The translations under genes and the position numbers were made by a program. DNA of 39,503 bases. Source: Mucilaginibacter sp. Its GTDB lineage: Bacteria; Bacteroidota; Bacteroidia; Sphingobacteriales; Sphingobacteriaceae. The DNA is taken from positions 1-39,503 of the forward strand of contig JAQNCM010000255.1 in NCBI GenBank assembly GCA_029237615.1, given 5' to 3'. The notes below the pieces were generated by a model, which made no database searches, was not told the origin of the DNA, and worked only from the letters and a program-made list of their open reading frames with translations. This document shows positions 28,615-39,503 of this stretch, piece after piece (positions within the stretch are counted from its first letter, which is position 1; each line of letters opens with the position of its first letter).

Positions 28615-29565
28615 ATGGATATATCAGTTGTAATACCTCTTTATGATGAAATAGAATCGTTGCCCGAGCTAACCTCATGGATCAGCCGTGTAATGGACGA
28701 GAACAGGTTTACTTATGAAGTCATCCTGGTTGATGATGGCAGCAGCGACGGTTCATGGGAGATGATACGGAAGCTCCATAAAAACAATCCTTTTTTAAAA
28801 GGCATAAAATTCAGGCGAAACTATGGCAAATCGGCTGCTTTAAATACCGGCTTTGAGGCAGCACAAGGCGACGTAGTGATCACCATGGATGCTGATTTAC
28901 AGGATAGCCCTGATGAGATTCCCGAACTTTACCGTCGTATTACAGAAGAAAAATATGATGTTGTTTCTGGCTGGAAAGCAAAAAGACATGACCCCTTAAG
29001 TAAGACCATCCCAACAAAAATTTACAATGCCGCAACCCGCCGCATGTCGGGCATACATAACCTGCATGATTTTAACTGCGGACTAAAAGCCTACCGTAAA
29101 CCGGTAGTAAAAAACATTGAAGTTTACGGCGAAATGCACCGGTATATCCCGGTGATAGCCAAATGGGCAGGCTTTGTTAAAATTGGCGAGCAGATAGTAG
29201 AGCACCGGCCCCGTAAATATGGAAAAACAAAATTTGGCATGAGCCGGTTTATCAACGGCCTGCTGGATTTAATGTCGATTTTCTTTGTCGGCAAATTTGG
29301 CAAAAGGCCTATGCACTTTTTCGGCACCATGGGTGTATTAAGCTTCTTAGCCGGAACTGTACTTGCCGTTTGGATATTGAGTGAAAAGCTCTATAACCTT
29401 TCCCACCATATCAAGCCAAGACAACCTACTGATAATCCGCTGTTTTATATTGCACTTGTTGCTGTAATACTGGGTTCACAGCTGTTTTTAACCGGCTTTG
29501 TTGCTGAACTGGTAGCACGCAGCGCACCAGAACGTAATAAGTATCAAATTGAAGAAACTATTTAA
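28615..29565 (+). CDS. GT2 polyprenyl-phosphate glycosyltransferase with two C-terminal membrane helices
   Basis: A GtrB/ArnC-type enzyme that attaches a sugar to undecaprenyl phosphate at the inner membrane. The catalytic domain shows VVIPLYDEIESLPE, DDGSSDGSWEM and DADLQDSPDEIPELY, ending in the R-x-x-x-YG-K-T-K-FG segment typical of this class. Two membrane helices follow (about 238-260 and 278-300). The 316-residue length is standard. Its likely partner is the GT-C-like membrane protein just upstream, which could use the lipid-linked sugar. The sugar cannot be predicted. Confidence 0.88.
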   Translation: MDISVVIPLYDEIESLPELTSWISRVMDENRFTYEVILVDDGSSDGSWEMIRKLHKNNPFLKGIKFRRNYGKSAALNTGFEAAQGDVVITMDADLQDSPDEIPELYRRITEEKYDVVSGWKAKRHDPLSKTIPTKIYNAATRRMSGIHNLHDFNCGLKAYRKPVVKNIEVYGEMHRYIPVIAKWAGFVKIGEQIVEHRPRKYGKTKFGMSRFINGLLDLMSIFFVGKFGKRPMHFFGTMGVLSFLAGTVLAVWILSEKLYNLSHHIKPRQPTDNPLFYIALVAVILGSQLFLTGFVAELVARSAPERNKYQIEETI

Positions 29566-29663
29566 ATGTGCAGATGTGGAAATATGCAAATGTGCAGATG
29601 AAAGAATATCAACTTATCTAACCAATAATCCGCACATTTGCACATCCGCACATCGCATATCTG
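29565..29663. repeat. Intergenic inverted repeat of ATGTGCAAATGTGC words
   Basis: The left arm (29565-29600) has ATGTGCAGATG and GCAAATGTGCAGATG; the right arm (29630-29663) contains CGCACATTTGCACATCCGC, its imperfect reverse complement. The gene frame of the next GT2 happens to stay open through it. Confidence 0.75.
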
Positions 29664-29665
29664 AA

Positions 29666-30634
29666 ATGTTTTTCTCCATCATCATACCCCTATATAACCG
29701 TCCGCAGGAGATAAAAGAATTGCTGGAAACGCTTACACTGCAAACTTATAAGCAATTTGAGGTTTTGGTGATTGAAGACGGCTCGATAGATGATGCGGCT
29801 GAAATTGTAAAAAGCTTTTCGGATAAGCTGGATGTTAAATACTTTGTGAAACAGAATGAGGGCCAGGGCTTTACCCGCAACTTCGGCTTTGAACGTGCTA
29901 AGGGAGACTACTTTATTATTTTTGACTCCGATTGCCTGATCCCCGAGAACTATTTGGAAATAGTTAATAATTCGCTGACAAAAAATCACCTGGACGCCTA
30001 TGGCGGACCGGATGCTTCGCACCCTTCCTTCACCCCTATCCAAAAAGCCATCAGCTACGCTATGACTTCACCATTTACCACCGGCGGCATCAGGGGTAAC
30101 AAAAAAGGTATCGGTCGGTTTCACCCTCGCAGCTTTAACATGGGCATATCAAGGCAGGTATGGGAAAAGGCCGGTGGCTTTATCATCACCCGCTCAGGCG
30201 AAGATATTGAGTACAGCATCCGTATTCATTCCATGGGTTTTAAGATTGGCCTTATACCCGAAGCAAAAGTTTATCATAAACGCCGCACTGATTTTTTTAA
30301 ATTTTATAAACAGCTTCATTTTTTTGGACGCGCCCGAATCAATGTTTATAAATTTTTCCCTGCCGAATTAAAGCTGGTACATTTTTTCCCGGTATTTTTC
30401 ACCTTGTCGCTTCTATTTACCGCCATCAGTAATATTTTAAACTGGCAAATAGCAGTTCTGTGTAATTTTATACTGGCCTGCATCATTTTGTTAATATTTT
30501 TTCATGCATGGTGGAAAAACAAATCAGCAAAAATCGCATTTTTGAGCATAATAGCTTCATTCATTCAATTAATAGCTTACGGGCTTGGTTTTATGCAGGA
30601 TTTTTGGAAGCGGGTAATATTAAAAAGATCTTAA
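29666..30634 (+). CDS. GT2 glycosyltransferase with C-terminal membrane helices
   Basis: A 322-residue family-2 glycosyltransferase. The catalytic part has FSIIIPLYNRPQEI, EDGSIDDA and a metal-binding FDSDCLIPENY, then a GGPDA loop and SGEDIEYSIRIHSMG near the acceptor side. About three membrane helices close the protein, so it is probably bound to the inner membrane. I use ATG 29666: a frame to 29549 exists but would overlap the preceding gene and translate the repeat element. Acceptor and donor are not evident; cell-surface polysaccharide synthesis is the usual role. Confidence 0.85.
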   Translation: MFFSIIIPLYNRPQEIKELLETLTLQTYKQFEVLVIEDGSIDDAAEIVKSFSDKLDVKYFVKQNEGQGFTRNFGFERAKGDYFIIFDSDCLIPENYLEIVNNSLTKNHLDAYGGPDASHPSFTPIQKAISYAMTSPFTTGGIRGNKKGIGRFHPRSFNMGISRQVWEKAGGFIITRSGEDIEYSIRIHSMGFKIGLIPEAKVYHKRRTDFFKFYKQLHFFGRARINVYKFFPAELKLVHFFPVFFTLSLLFTAISNILNWQIAVLCNFILACIILLIFFHAWWKNKSAKIAFLSIIASFIQLIAYGLGFMQDFWKRVILKRS

Positions 30635-36102: not shown

Positions 36103-36657
36103 TTACACTGCCGGATCAGAATAAGATTCCGTTGATTCGATATCCAAAAGGGACCGCTCTTTTTTAAATATCGCTGCGCCAATCAGTGCAATGATCGCAC
36201 CAATAATAGGTGAGAAGATCACTGCGCCTATAGCAGCGAATAAAGGGCCATATTTTCGGCTAACACTCATCGCCTTGTCAATTTGATCGGCTGACAGGCT
36301 GCCTTTTGCCTGTAATTGTGCCTGGGTAGAGCTCAATATTTGTTCGTAAACCTGCGGACTCAAATATTGGTAGTAGATATAAATGAAGATGGCGCCTAAA
36401 ATCCCTGTAAAAACTGAAAATAATAAACCCGAAACAAAGCCTTCTCCAAAACTTATGAAACCGCCTAATTGATCCCTGTATTCCTTTTGTGTCAGGAACA
36501 GGAATGCAATAAAAGGAATAAAACTTAAATACTTTACAGAGGAAGTTTGGTCAACATTTAAAAATTGAAAGGCATAAGTAATGACTACAGAAGCTATAAA
36601 ATTAATTATGGCCCATTTAAATGCGACTTTCGATGCAGACGGTTTTACATTTTCCAT
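36103..36657 (-). CDS. DUF4199 membrane protein, copy 1
   Basis: A 184-residue protein of the DUF4199 family, common and uncharacterised in Bacteroidota. Four hydrophobic segments are visible, and the family core reads FISFGEGFVSGLLFSVFTGILGAIFIYIYYQYL. A polar loop after it carries QILSSTQAQLQAKGSLSADQIDKAM, typical of the family. It is the last gene of the minus-strand unit that begins beyond 39503 and follows a second DUF4199 gene with a 177-base gap. Function unknown. Confidence 0.85.
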   Translation of the reverse strand: MENVKPSASKVAFKWAIINFIASVVITYAFQFLNVDQTSSVKYLSFIPFIAFLFLTQKEYRDQLGGFISFGEGFVSGLLFSVFTGILGAIFIYIYYQYLSPQVYEQILSSTQAQLQAKGSLSADQIDKAMSVSRKYGPLFAAIGAVIFSPIIGAIIALIGAAIFKKERSLLDIESTESYSDPAV

Positions 36658-36834: not shown

Positions 36835-37416
36835 TTATGGGGTGTTTGTATTAACGAATCCGGGTTCTCTTTTAAATAACGAAGCAAATATCAGGGCGAA
36901 AAGAAATACGAATAAAATAGAAAAAACCATTCCCTGGATGGTATTCCCAACCGTAAGATTTTTTTGCTGGTTAAAATCCTTTTTTAGCTCAATAATGTTC
37001 CTTTCTATCACCCTGGGGTCGGTTTTCCGCTCTTTCAATATGGCAACTTTCGCGTTTATCGCGGCGTTTTGGGTCATTTGTACATTATTGGGCTCAATAA
37101 CCTTGTCGAAAATTAAATTTTTTCCTGCAAATTGTACCAGGTATGCAGTTAAAAACATAATGAATATCCCGGTAGTTGCCTGTCTGAAGGTCCAATACCC
37201 ACCTATTTTCTTCCGCGCATTAAAACAAAAGAGCACTACCGCAAAAATGGGTATAAACACCGAAAACATGATAGGGCCGGCCACAAAAAGTACCGGCGAG
37301 CTTGTAATTGCAGTAATAAAATAATAAGAGAAAATGCTAAGCGCTGTTAAAATAACGCCTAACAGCAGCCCATTTATAACGCCATTGATCTTTATTCTTT
37401 TTTCGAGGTTATCCAT
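36835..37416 (-). CDS. DUF4199 membrane protein, copy 2
   Basis: A 193-residue paralogue-type DUF4199 protein with four membrane segments; its core GYWTFRQATTGIFIMFLTAYLVQFAG corresponds to the FxxGExxxxGxxxS region of copy 1 but is more divergent, and its loop is richer in Lys and Arg. It is 21 bases after the acidic protein gene on the same strand, suggesting an operon with that gene and the dihydroorotase-like gene. Tandem, divergent copies suggest a heteromeric pair, which is an inference. Confidence 0.8.
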   Translation of the reverse strand: MDNLEKRIKINGVINGLLLGVILTALSIFSYYFITAITSSPVLFVAGPIMFSVFIPIFAVVLFCFNARKKIGGYWTFRQATTGIFIMFLTAYLVQFAGKNLIFDKVIEPNNVQMTQNAAINAKVAILKERKTDPRVIERNIIELKKDFNQQKNLTVGNTIQGMVFSILFVFLFALIFASLFKREPGFVNTNTP

Positions 37417-37437: not shown

Positions 37438-38106
37438 CTATTTAAAACTGATCAGAATTTCTAACACAGCCATATCAAAATCTTTATTCTGTGATGCCCC
37501 GGCAATAGCATTTTTTTCCTGCTCAGACGGGCTGGTATTTTGAAAAAAGCACATCAACGGGTAAAAAAGTTCTTTTAATTCCGAATCTTCCGGTAAGCTG
37601 TTAGCTACTTTGCTTATTTCGGTTACCGGGCTTTCAATTAATATCTGGTTCTCTATTACCGGTTCATAAATGGCATATTCGTCCTGGAACTCATCTTCAT
37701 CAACTAATAAGAATTCTTTCAGATAATCGTCCAGTCCAGGTTCAATGTCTTCGTCAGCACACTCGTTTAAATAAAGCAATACATTTAAAAGTTCAGTCCC
37801 CCTGTCCAGCGTTTCTTCTTCAATCTCTTCCCACTCCGGCGAATCGAGGTAATCTTCTTCCAGTTTTATAACATCGGCGCTAAAGAAGTTGATCATCAGC
37901 AAATCGAAAAACACTTCTCTGAGCGGCTCCATCGGCGGATAGTCATCAAATACCTCATCCAGCATGCCTGCCTTTGATAAAAAGTCCTCTTCTGATGCAA
38001 ATACTGCGGTAAAAGCGCCGGTAAATGGTTTGGCGTCGAATGTGTTATATTTAGAAAAAGCTATTAATGCGGCTTCCGTAGCCGTTTTTACCTTTGGATC
38101 TATCAT
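37438..38106 (-). CDS. Acidic soluble protein of unknown function
   Basis: A 222-residue protein very rich in Asp and Glu, with no signal peptide and no membrane helix. A conspicuous acidic middle segment carries EEDYLDSPEWEEIEEETLD and VDEDEFQDEY. The pattern of short helices could be an all-helical scaffold. It lies 7 bases downstream of the dihydroorotase-like gene and 21 bases upstream of DUF4199 copy 2, so it is part of that operon. I do not recognise a family. Confidence 0.7.
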   Translation of the reverse strand: MIDPKVKTATEAALIAFSKYNTFDAKPFTGAFTAVFASEEDFLSKAGMLDEVFDDYPPMEPLREVFFDLLMINFFSADVIKLEEDYLDSPEWEEIEEETLDRGTELLNVLLYLNECADEDIEPGLDDYLKEFLLVDEDEFQDEYAIYEPVIENQILIESPVTEISKVANSLPEDSELKELFYPLMCFFQNTSPSEQEKNAIAGASQNKDFDMAVLEILISFK

Positions 38107-38113
38107 GATGTGG

Positions 38114-39364
38114 TTATTTATAAAGTTGATTGTTGTTACAGGTTAACAATACTTTTCCTTTTAAGTTCTGTCCTAAAAACGGTGAATTATAAGATTTCGA
38201 CCTGTTGTTGTTTTTGGTATAGGTCCATTCAGCATCGGCATCAAATAACACAAGGTTAGCTTCCTGCCCTTCAGCTATTGCCGGAACCAAAACATCTAAA
38301 ATCTCCCGCGGATTCACAGCCATTTTCTGCACGATCAGGTCAATGTCCAAACCAGCCTTTAGCGCCAGCGAAAACGCCGTTTGAAATCCTATCATACCAA
38401 ATTCAGCTACCTCAAATTCAACATCTTTAAATTCCACTTCGTGCGGGGTATGCTGCGATACAATAACATCTATGGTACCATCTTTAAGCCCTTCCAGCAA
38501 GGCGTCCACATCATCCTGTGTGCGCAATGGTGGCTTAACTTTATAAAGGCTGTCAAAGCCTGTAAGCGCTTCATCCGTTAAAACCAGGTGATGAGCGGCA
38601 ACATCACATGTTACTTCCAATCTTTTACGCTTGGCCTCACGTATCAGCTCAACAGAACGTGTAGTTGATATAGTGCTGAAGTGGATCCTTGATCCGGTAT
38701 ATTCAGCCAGGTAAAGATCCCGGGCTATCATCAGCTCTTCTGCTAATGAGGGGATACCTTTCATCCCCAGCAGGGTGCTTATTTCGCCCTCATTTATTTT
38801 GGCTTTTCCTGCAATGGCGGTGTCCTCTGGGTAAGATAATATAAGTGCTTCAAATCCTTGAGTGTACAATAAGGCCCTTTCCATTAATCCTGCATCCTGT
38901 ACGGGCCTGTTGCCATCAGTAAACGCTTTGGCGCCACTCATGTACATGTCATACATTTCGGCCAGGTCCTTACCTTCGCGTTTATGCGAAATGGTACCTA
39001 AGGGATAAACATCAACCAGGTTTTTATTTGCTCTATTCAGTAAATATTCAATTTCAGCCTTTGAATGTACCGGCGGAACGGTATTGGGCATCAATGCAAT
39101 ACCTGTAAAACCACCTGCTGCCGCCGCTTTTGTACCGGTATAAAGATCTTCTTTTGCTTCGAGCCCCAATTCGCCGATGTTGCAATTCAAATCAAAAAAG
39201 CCCGGAGAAACATATTTACCGTCGGCCTCAATAATTTCTGCGTCTGTCTCAATTTCGGGAGCTATTTTGGTGATAACACCTTTCTCAATTAAAATATCAG
39301 CTATTTTTTGATTAAATGGTGAGTTGGGATCAATAATAGTTGCGGATTTTATAAGCAAATTCAT
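38114..39364 (-). CDS. Dihydroorotase-family protein (PyrC-like) with lost metal ligands
   Basis: A 416-residue amidohydrolase-fold protein that would normally be called dihydroorotase (N-carbamoyl-L-aspartate cyclisation in pyrimidine synthesis). The overall fold is plain: SPGFFDLN near 53-60, GGFTGIALMPNT, GAKAFTDG, IHFSTIST, TPHE. However, the metal-binding H-x-H of active enzymes is N60-C61-N62, the third ligand region reads YPED (178-181) instead of HxED-like, and the catalytic Asp of the DHAPH motif is Q304 in SQHTPH. It is therefore probably not catalytic, perhaps a structural partner of carbamoyltransferase as in other pseudo-dihydroorotases. Divergent homologues of this kind are, from memory, common in Bacteroidota. 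Confidence 0.88.
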   Translation of the reverse strand: MNLLIKSATIIDPNSPFNQKIADILIEKGVITKIAPEIETDAEIIEADGKYVSPGFFDLNCNIGELGLEAKEDLYTGTKAAAAGGFTGIALMPNTVPPVHSKAEIEYLLNRANKNLVDVYPLGTISHKREGKDLAEMYDMYMSGAKAFTDGNRPVQDAGLMERALLYTQGFEALILSYPEDTAIAGKAKINEGEISTLLGMKGIPSLAEELMIARDLYLAEYTGSRIHFSTISTTRSVELIREAKRKRLEVTCDVAAHHLVLTDEALTGFDSLYKVKPPLRTQDDVDALLEGLKDGTIDVIVSQHTPHEVEFKDVEFEVAEFGMIGFQTAFSLALKAGLDIDLIVQKMAVNPREILDVLVPAIAEGQEANLVLFDADAEWTYTKNNNRSKSYNSPFLGQNLKGKVLLTCNNNQLYK

Positions 39365-39395: not shown

Positions 39396-39503
39396 TTAAA
39401 CCGGCTGTGAAACGCGTCGGCGATCAGTTTTATAATACCTGATCACTAAAATCTCGAGAGCCAGAAAAATCAATGCCAAAATTATACAAAGTTTCCATAA
39501 TTG
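39396..39503 (-). CDS. C-terminal tail of a BatA/VWA-like membrane protein (partial)
   Basis: On the minus strand the frame entering from beyond 39503 is open for 35 codons and ends at TAA 39396. The tail reads LWKLCIILALIFLALEILVI followed by RYYKTDRRRVSQPV: one hydrophobic helix then a basic end. This closing pattern (LWK then a long LxxxxLxLxE helix) is what I expect at the C-terminus of BatA-domain proteins of Bacteroidota. It is 31 bases upstream of the dihydroorotase-like gene on the same strand, so it may be the first gene of that operon. The rest lies outside the window. Confidence 0.55.
   Translation of the reverse strand, partial: QLWKLCIILALIFLALEILVIRYYKTDRRRVSQPV

Follow-up and report, generated by a model that had tools for sequence, protein, structure and literature searches.

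A PyrX-like pseudo-dihydroorotase of Mucilaginibacter that lacks the metal site and is probably kept as a partner of aspartate transcarbamoylase

Aspartate transcarbamoylases (ATCases; PyrB) are given the names class A1 and class A2 in PMC7053772. In class A1, represented by the DHO-ATC complex of Aquifex aeolicus (3d6n, 4bjh), the dihydroorotase (DHO) has an intact metal site and is catalytically active when complexed; its loops A to C become ordered only on binding of ATC (PMC3880350). Class A2 is represented by Pseudomonas and probably by S. meliloti, whose ATCase partner, PyrX (pDHO; smc01361 in S. meliloti), belongs to the type-I DHO family, has lost the metal ligands and occurs together with a separate PyrC. 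The P. aeruginosa ATCase chain alone is described as an inactive monomer, and the full dodecamer as forming only with pDHO (PMC7053772). Disruption of smc01361, which lies beside pyrB, led to pyrimidine auxotrophy, and its authors proposed that an inactive PyrX is needed for PyrB (PMC5929573). A search of titles and the starts of abstracts in open PMC found no literature on PyrX in Bacteroidia, and earlier mention elsewhere is possible.

Here, we examined a protein of the type-I DHO family encoded near the end of a contig of Mucilaginibacter sp.; the window refers to the whole stretch analysed (39,503 nucleotides). Read on the plus strand, positions 38114 to 39364 contained 20 stops, and the true open reading frame was on the minus strand. 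The gene and its neighbours were as follows:

39396..39503, minus strand: upstream BatA-like membrane protein, of which the contig end leaves the C-terminal tail (matched by eye)
38114..39364, minus strand: PyrX-like pseudo-dihydroorotase, 416 aa (open reading frame with ATG start, family score, predicted fold, alignment)
37438..38106, minus strand: acidic protein, predicted to be all-helical, 222 aa, beside the pseudo-dihydroorotase
36835..37416, minus strand: DUF4199 membrane protein a (PF13858)
36103..36657, minus strand: DUF4199 membrane protein b (PF13858)

The window protein scored 353.6 bits against the type-I dihydroorotase model TIGR00857, above the curated cut-off of 279.05, and 194.6 bits against the allantoinase/hydantoinase model TIGR03178, below its cut-off of 357.85 and with HxH missing, placing it outside the allantoinases and hydantoinases. 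Its closest solved relative by sequence was the A. aeolicus dihydroorotase (E 4e-84), and among the best 80 loci its nearest named relatives were from Mucilaginibacter (identity up to 87%), then from Arcticibacter, Daejeonella, Pedobacter and Sphingobacterium. The fold was predicted with a pLDDT of 94.4 and a pTM of 0.93, and comparison of the gene with the copy in the relative G099 gave a dN of 0.085 and a dS of 2.6, the latter close to saturation. A full-length protein with this family score, this fold confidence and so low a dN relative to dS is unlikely to be a product of chance or decay, and the dihydroorotase-like fold named in the initial annotation, which was made from the sequence alone, is borne out.

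Loss of the metal site was read from the alignment with A. aeolicus DHO, in which ligands H61, H63, D153, H180, H232 and D305 corresponded to N60, N62, G151, Y178, T231 and Q304, so that neither the metal site (H61, H63, D153) nor the catalytic D305 by which an active type-I DHO would be recognised was present. The positions concerned, together with two motifs that were kept, were:

39179..39187, minus strand: N60-C61-N62, where A. aeolicus has the HxH pair H61 and H63 (alignment)
38912..38914, minus strand: G151, where A. aeolicus has the alpha-site ligand D153 (alignment)
38822..38833, minus strand: Y178-P-E-D, where A. aeolicus has the H180 region (alignment)
38738..38794, minus strand: kept motif NEG..S..LG..G.P..AE, residues 191-209 (E192, G200 and E209 invariant in 51 PyrX)
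38672..38674, minus strand: T231 in place of H232 (alignment)
38522..38533, minus strand: kept motif PPLR, residues 278-281 (P278, P279 and R281 at 98-100% in 51 PyrX)
38453..38455, minus strand: Q304 in place of D305 (alignment)

The initial annotation had already pointed to N60-C61-N62 in place of the H-x-H metal pair, to YPED in the third-ligand region and to Q304 in place of the catalytic Asp, and the alignment agrees at each of these residues. It had also named alternative intact ligands as a finding that would speak against it; none appeared in the alignment of 51 PyrX from the class (54 were found, and G130, G154 and G202 were left out of the reading). H61 and H232 were missing in all 51. 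Partial remnants occurred, namely a His at 63 in five, D153 in one and a His at 180 in eight, while Asp still stood at 305 in 26 of the 51; this Asp and the remnant His residues count against reading these proteins as PyrX. All six ligands were present in nine of nine DHOs read from other classes of the phylum, which were among the best-scoring ones and not a random draw. Of 92 columns invariant in 10 active-site-intact enzymes, 18 dropped below 20% in the 51 PyrX, including H61, H63, D153, H180 and H232 as well as R65 and H309, and 37 stayed at 90% or above, including E193, L200, G201, E210, P279, P280 and R282 (all in Aquifex numbering). The kept NEG..S..LG..G.P..AE stretch starts about ten residues past the position of C181, the loop A cysteine of A. 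aeolicus. H61 was replaced by S, G, N, F, R or K and H232 by T, G, N, R, L or K, and no new conserved metal motif was found in the alignment of 51 PyrX. Since H61 and H232 were absent from every PyrX read and all six ligands were present in the nine other-class relatives, the loss is old and shared, with the positions drifting and not converging on a new site.

In structure comparison, Foldseek ranked the ATC-bound Aquifex DHO, 3d6n_A, first among structures matching the predicted model (TM 0.95, E 1.8e-49), and VIA-align gave a tie between 4bjh, 3d6n and the Thermus DHO 2z00 (Z 58.6, 58.2 and 57.7; rmsd 1.9, 1.9 and 1.5; 413, 413 and 410 residues aligned, respectively). Alignment and predicted model thus both describe a DHO-family fold without the metal ligands. 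Free Aquifex DHO scored below its complexed form, probably due to its missing loops. The modelled fit is consistent with PyrB binding and is no proof of it, because scores almost as high were obtained with complete DHOs from other bacteria and the ATC-bound form is not singled out.

The genome also encodes a separate PyrC with intact metal-site motifs, which the initial annotation had suggested looking for. The window assembly (5.27 Mb in 708 contigs) was 87.75% complete, with its own contamination estimate at 5.68%. PyrC, on contig C646, matched NF006688 with 728.5 bits (cut-off 535), carried the HxH-type QVH and DHAPH, and shared 32% identity with the window protein, of the same superfamily; this PRK09236-type enzyme presumably carries out dihydroorotase catalysis. 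A phosphoribosyltransferase gene (Pfam match), which we take to be PyrR-like, was found upstream of pyrB on another contig. PyrB itself was a 308-aa frame with motifs FxExSTR, RxQxER and HPGP, the ATCase motifs as named in PMC4581275. No PyrI was found in this 87.75% complete genome, so its absence leans on relatives: PyrI occurred in two of 61 class genomes, both without PyrX. An intact PyrC and a PyrB without PyrI thus accompany the window protein. On contig C706 (L003, G000), a hydantoinase-like gene lay among genes that looked alphaproteobacterial by eye, a possible contamination.

A strong match to the window protein (E 2.3e-80 or better) was present in 55 of the 61 class genomes, 54 of these matches being PyrX and one, in G072, active-site-intact. 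Among 395 class genomes, 334 encoded a near type of PyrB, defined as E <= 1e-110 to the PyrB of the window genome. PyrX was found in 311 of the 334 by a single-query scan, which scored at most four candidates per genome, and in 321 after a profile re-check counting fragments (presence counts include fragments in G398 and G532 and one copy with an in-frame stop in G451). The 13 near-PyrB genomes without PyrX count against the PyrX reading; seven were less than 90% complete and six (G468, G476, G480, G535, G542 and G556) at least 90% complete. Candidates in five of the latter were rejected as PyrX: the piece in G480 was PyrC (253 vs 73.5 bits), the best profile matches in G468, G535 and G542 kept TDHSP and scored about equally or higher with the PyrC profile than with that of PyrX, and that in G476 kept HVH and DHSP, the last four being other amidohydrolases. 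Six f68/g146 genomes carried a divergent PyrX that the single query missed and the profile found, and in family f80 a highly divergent PyrX candidate, likewise recovered by profile search only, was present beside PyrC in 12 of 12 genomes. Six f80 candidates were read, one of them a fragment; PPLR was present in all six and the metal site was lost in the five longer ones. The f80 copies at L159, L160, L379, L384 and L387 looked like an extremely derived PyrX with PPLR and L[AS]GWxGIPxYAE, and PyrB was fast-evolving there too.

PyrI was found in 17 of the 395 genomes, all 17 without PyrX and with PyrC as the sole full-length DHO match, as each match showed when read or scored, and their PyrB was at 35-38% identity (six measured). 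The PyrI genomes may form one clade, so that independent losses are few, in about four lineages, which weighs against the PyrX reading. A far or partial PyrB match was seen in 42 genomes: 24 without PyrX (17 with PyrI, two of f3, four of f87 and one fragmented assembly), the active pair of G072, and 17 with PyrX (11 of f80 plus G551, where both proteins are fast-evolving, and G272, G296, G388, G463 and G568, with a weak or split PyrB match). The distant PyrB of the PyrX-less lineages was at 43-44% identity in f3 and 37-50% in f87 (three of four f87 measured). No PyrB match at 1e-8 was found in the remaining 19 of 395 genomes. Five genomes that were 91-100% complete, G166 and G572 (f9) and G280, G314 and G344 (f77), yielded neither PyrB nor a clear PyrX with the queries used. 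In G072 (f9; L110), the active-site-intact DHO adjoined its own pyrB and PyrX was missing, and on a Hymenobacter canadensis plasmid (L369) an intact-site DHO adjoined pyrB in the same way; in both, a divergent DHO with its pyrB has apparently replaced the whole ATCase module. Co-distribution gave a Fisher p of 2e-28, calculated on single-query classes with relatedness ignored. PyrX is thus mostly gained and lost together with the type of PyrB.

For co-divergence, PyrX, PyrB and PyrC trees were compared over shared genomes, in sets of 59, 57 and 46. Given PyrC, PyrX and PyrB had a partial correlation of 0.70 (59 genomes) and 0.73 (57 genomes), values reached in 0 of 500 permutations; the corresponding values for PyrX and PyrC given PyrB were 0.13 and 0.37, respectively. 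In the 46-genome subset without fast lineages, the pairwise partial correlation was 0.39 (0 of 500 permutations) against 0.30 for PyrX-PyrC, and the per-genome value reversed (0.17 vs 0.35), which counts against the PyrX reading. Since the difference shrinks or reverses in this subset, the signal seems to rest largely on a few lineages in which PyrX and PyrB both accelerate.

In trees, the sampled Bacteroidia PyrX formed one clade (100/100) that grouped with active-site-intact DHOs of its own phylum (SH-aLRT/bootstrap 99.7/100; 94.4/98 with active-site columns removed), which were also the nearest tree group to the class PyrX at 44-46% identity, unlike it in having the metal site intact in the nine read, and with pyrB in the short stretch of two of 10 such genomes. 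The PyrX-like proteins of S. meliloti, Methylobacterium, Ruegeria and Azospirillum formed a separate clade (100/100). The phylum's active DHOs were weakly supported as a clade (52/76 and 68/80), and PyrX may be nested among them. Descent from proteobacterial PyrX, suggested by a sparse tree in which active DHOs and PyrX split at 98/99, was rejected when a fuller tree overturned it; this tree added two more alphaproteobacterial PyrX-like proteins and, from Actinomycetota and Bacillota, five DHOs with an intact active site, and was run with and without active-site columns. The trees were built without the Pseudomonas PyrX and the fast f68 and f80 copies, and their Nonomuraea row is an over-long 737-aa open frame. 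Common descent with proteobacterial PyrX failed to appear in a comparison covering four alphaproteobacterial sequences. Because the tree groups PyrX with the active DHOs of its own phylum and apart from the alphaproteobacterial PyrX-like proteins, the class PyrX was probably inactivated independently, in a single event starting from the active type-I enzyme of that phylum. The S. meliloti protein shares the NEG...LG..G.P..AE and PPLR motifs, A. aeolicus DHO remains the best match by sequence and best or tied-best by structure and differs in its kept metal site, and PRK09236-type PyrC stands apart from the window protein by its intact metal-site motifs.

Unlike S. meliloti, where pyrB and the DHO gene overlap, the class had no pyrB or pyrR within the flanks of any of 45 PyrX loci, a further point against the PyrX reading. 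The context set comprised 46 loci (the 45 and the active copy of G072), with flanks mostly of 6-7 kb and shorter at contig or stretch ends (for example L112 and L114). The initial annotation had listed an acidic protein, two DUF4199 proteins and a BatA-like tail as neighbours, and these were recovered: both DUF4199 genes matched PF13858, and G099 encodes a complete PF07584 BatA protein whose end the tail at the contig edge resembles on visual comparison. A BatA-like gene lay just upstream in 29 of the 46 loci, in one of them separated by a small ORF; DUF4199 followed in 24 and a GT2 gene in 21, many gaps within the cluster being a few bases or overlaps. The acidic protein adjoined PyrX in the window and in six loci of its family and in none of 40 other loci; the seven copies, each directly after PyrX, had 70% mean column identity, with no Pfam or NCBIfam match and an unconvincing PDB-fold comparison (best E 2.3). 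No tRNA was found in the window. Family f4 instead carried a small protein and/or an alpha/beta hydrolase downstream (17 loci each, 16 with both). A PyrX-DUF4199-DUF4199-GT2-glycosyltransferase block was present on Rufibacter tibetensis plasmid 2 (L367; 12.5 kb, six annotated genes), which belongs to the class. In other lineages, seven annotated records of a plasmid collection had a DHO gene after pyrB, once with a gene between. The ancestral order may have been pyrR-pyrB-DHO, from which the class would have retained pyrR-pyrB after a break.

Other GT2 genes were seen further afield. Two occur in the window at 28615-30634 on the plus strand, opposite to that of the pseudo-dihydroorotase and several kb from it; GH3-like, Dxr, RseP and glyoxalase genes lie in the interval, and relatives of the two GT2 genes directly follow PyrX and DUF4199 in L071, L073 and L074 of the same family. 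A GT2 gene at about 25-28% identity to those of the window was also noted in the PyrC flank of several PyrI genomes, as well as in that of G041 and G088 (L120, L121, L122, L126, L150, L152, L382, L385, L386 and L388).

We consider it probable that the window protein is a PyrX, that is, a type-I DHO without a metal site kept as a non-catalytic partner of PyrB. This is supported by the lost metal site, by an intact PyrC elsewhere in the genome, by conservation across most of the class genomes sampled, and by co-distribution and, in the wide sets, co-divergence with one PyrB type. The initial annotation had offered either a noncatalytic scaffold or a repurposed role; the scaffold is the better idea, with indirect support from the separate PyrC, the co-distribution and co-divergence with PyrB and the fit to the DHO of DHO-ATC, and a repurposed role is less likely. 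In the latter, the dead DHO fold would be a scaffold for BatA-like, DUF4199 and glycosyltransferase proteins, unrelated to PyrB. We still consider it because the conserved clustering with these genes is frequent, tightly spaced and repeated in the Rufibacter plasmid block, with pyrB and pyrR missing nearby in all 45 loci. It is nonetheless unlikely: the partners change in f4, whereas PyrX stays linked to the PyrB type and missing from PyrI genomes, and in the wide sets PyrX follows the divergence of PyrB beyond that of PyrC. The two roles might also be combined, the pseudo-dihydroorotase assembling ATCase and also linking that enzyme's reaction, the first committed step in making pyrimidines, to the envelope via the BatA-like/DUF4199/glycosyltransferase cluster, for example by bringing the ATCase dodecamer to membrane sites that consume nucleotide- or polyprenol-linked sugars. 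Both co-distribution with PyrB and a recurrent envelope-gene context were observed, but neighbourhood alone is weak and this context is not universal, leaving such tethering or coupling a rather improbable account.

That the protein is still an enzyme, acting on another substrate through a metal-free or differently ligated site, would fit the conservation of N95 (44 of 51), H306 (51 of 51) and PPLR and the D305 kept in about half of the PyrX; we regard it as very unlikely, given that the former metal positions vary among many residues instead of settling on one new motif and that the pyrB-adjacent S. meliloti homologue also lacks the metal site. A decaying pseudogene has the lost catalytic residues and nothing else in its favour, and presence in 54 of 61 class genomes, a dN far below dS and a high-confidence fold make it scarcely credible; local decay or assembly error is likewise unlikely given class-wide conservation and the low dN.

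PyrX is thus the most likely identity by anatomy and distribution, with PyrB binding and support putative, and with an origin and a neighbourhood that differ from those of known PyrX. The window protein itself would be inactive. By analogy with the DHO-ATC complex of A. aeolicus and the ATCase-pDHO complex of Pseudomonas, two trimers of PyrB would be held together by PyrX dimers to give a dodecamer. PyrB would then require PyrX for activity or stability, and the catalytic step would be left to a different dihydroorotase of PRK09236 type.

The label "dihydroorotase", as applied by family models and in records, is very probably wrong for most of the class, and the mislabel affects metabolic models and calls of pyrC essentiality or drug targets in these bacteria. 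If the PyrX reading is true, loss of catalysis with retention of the ATCase-subunit role arose on two or more occasions, in this class with the gene unlinked to pyrB, and the class would offer a clean system for enzymes turning into structural partners. It would also predict that PyrB from these bacteria is not amenable to study in isolation.
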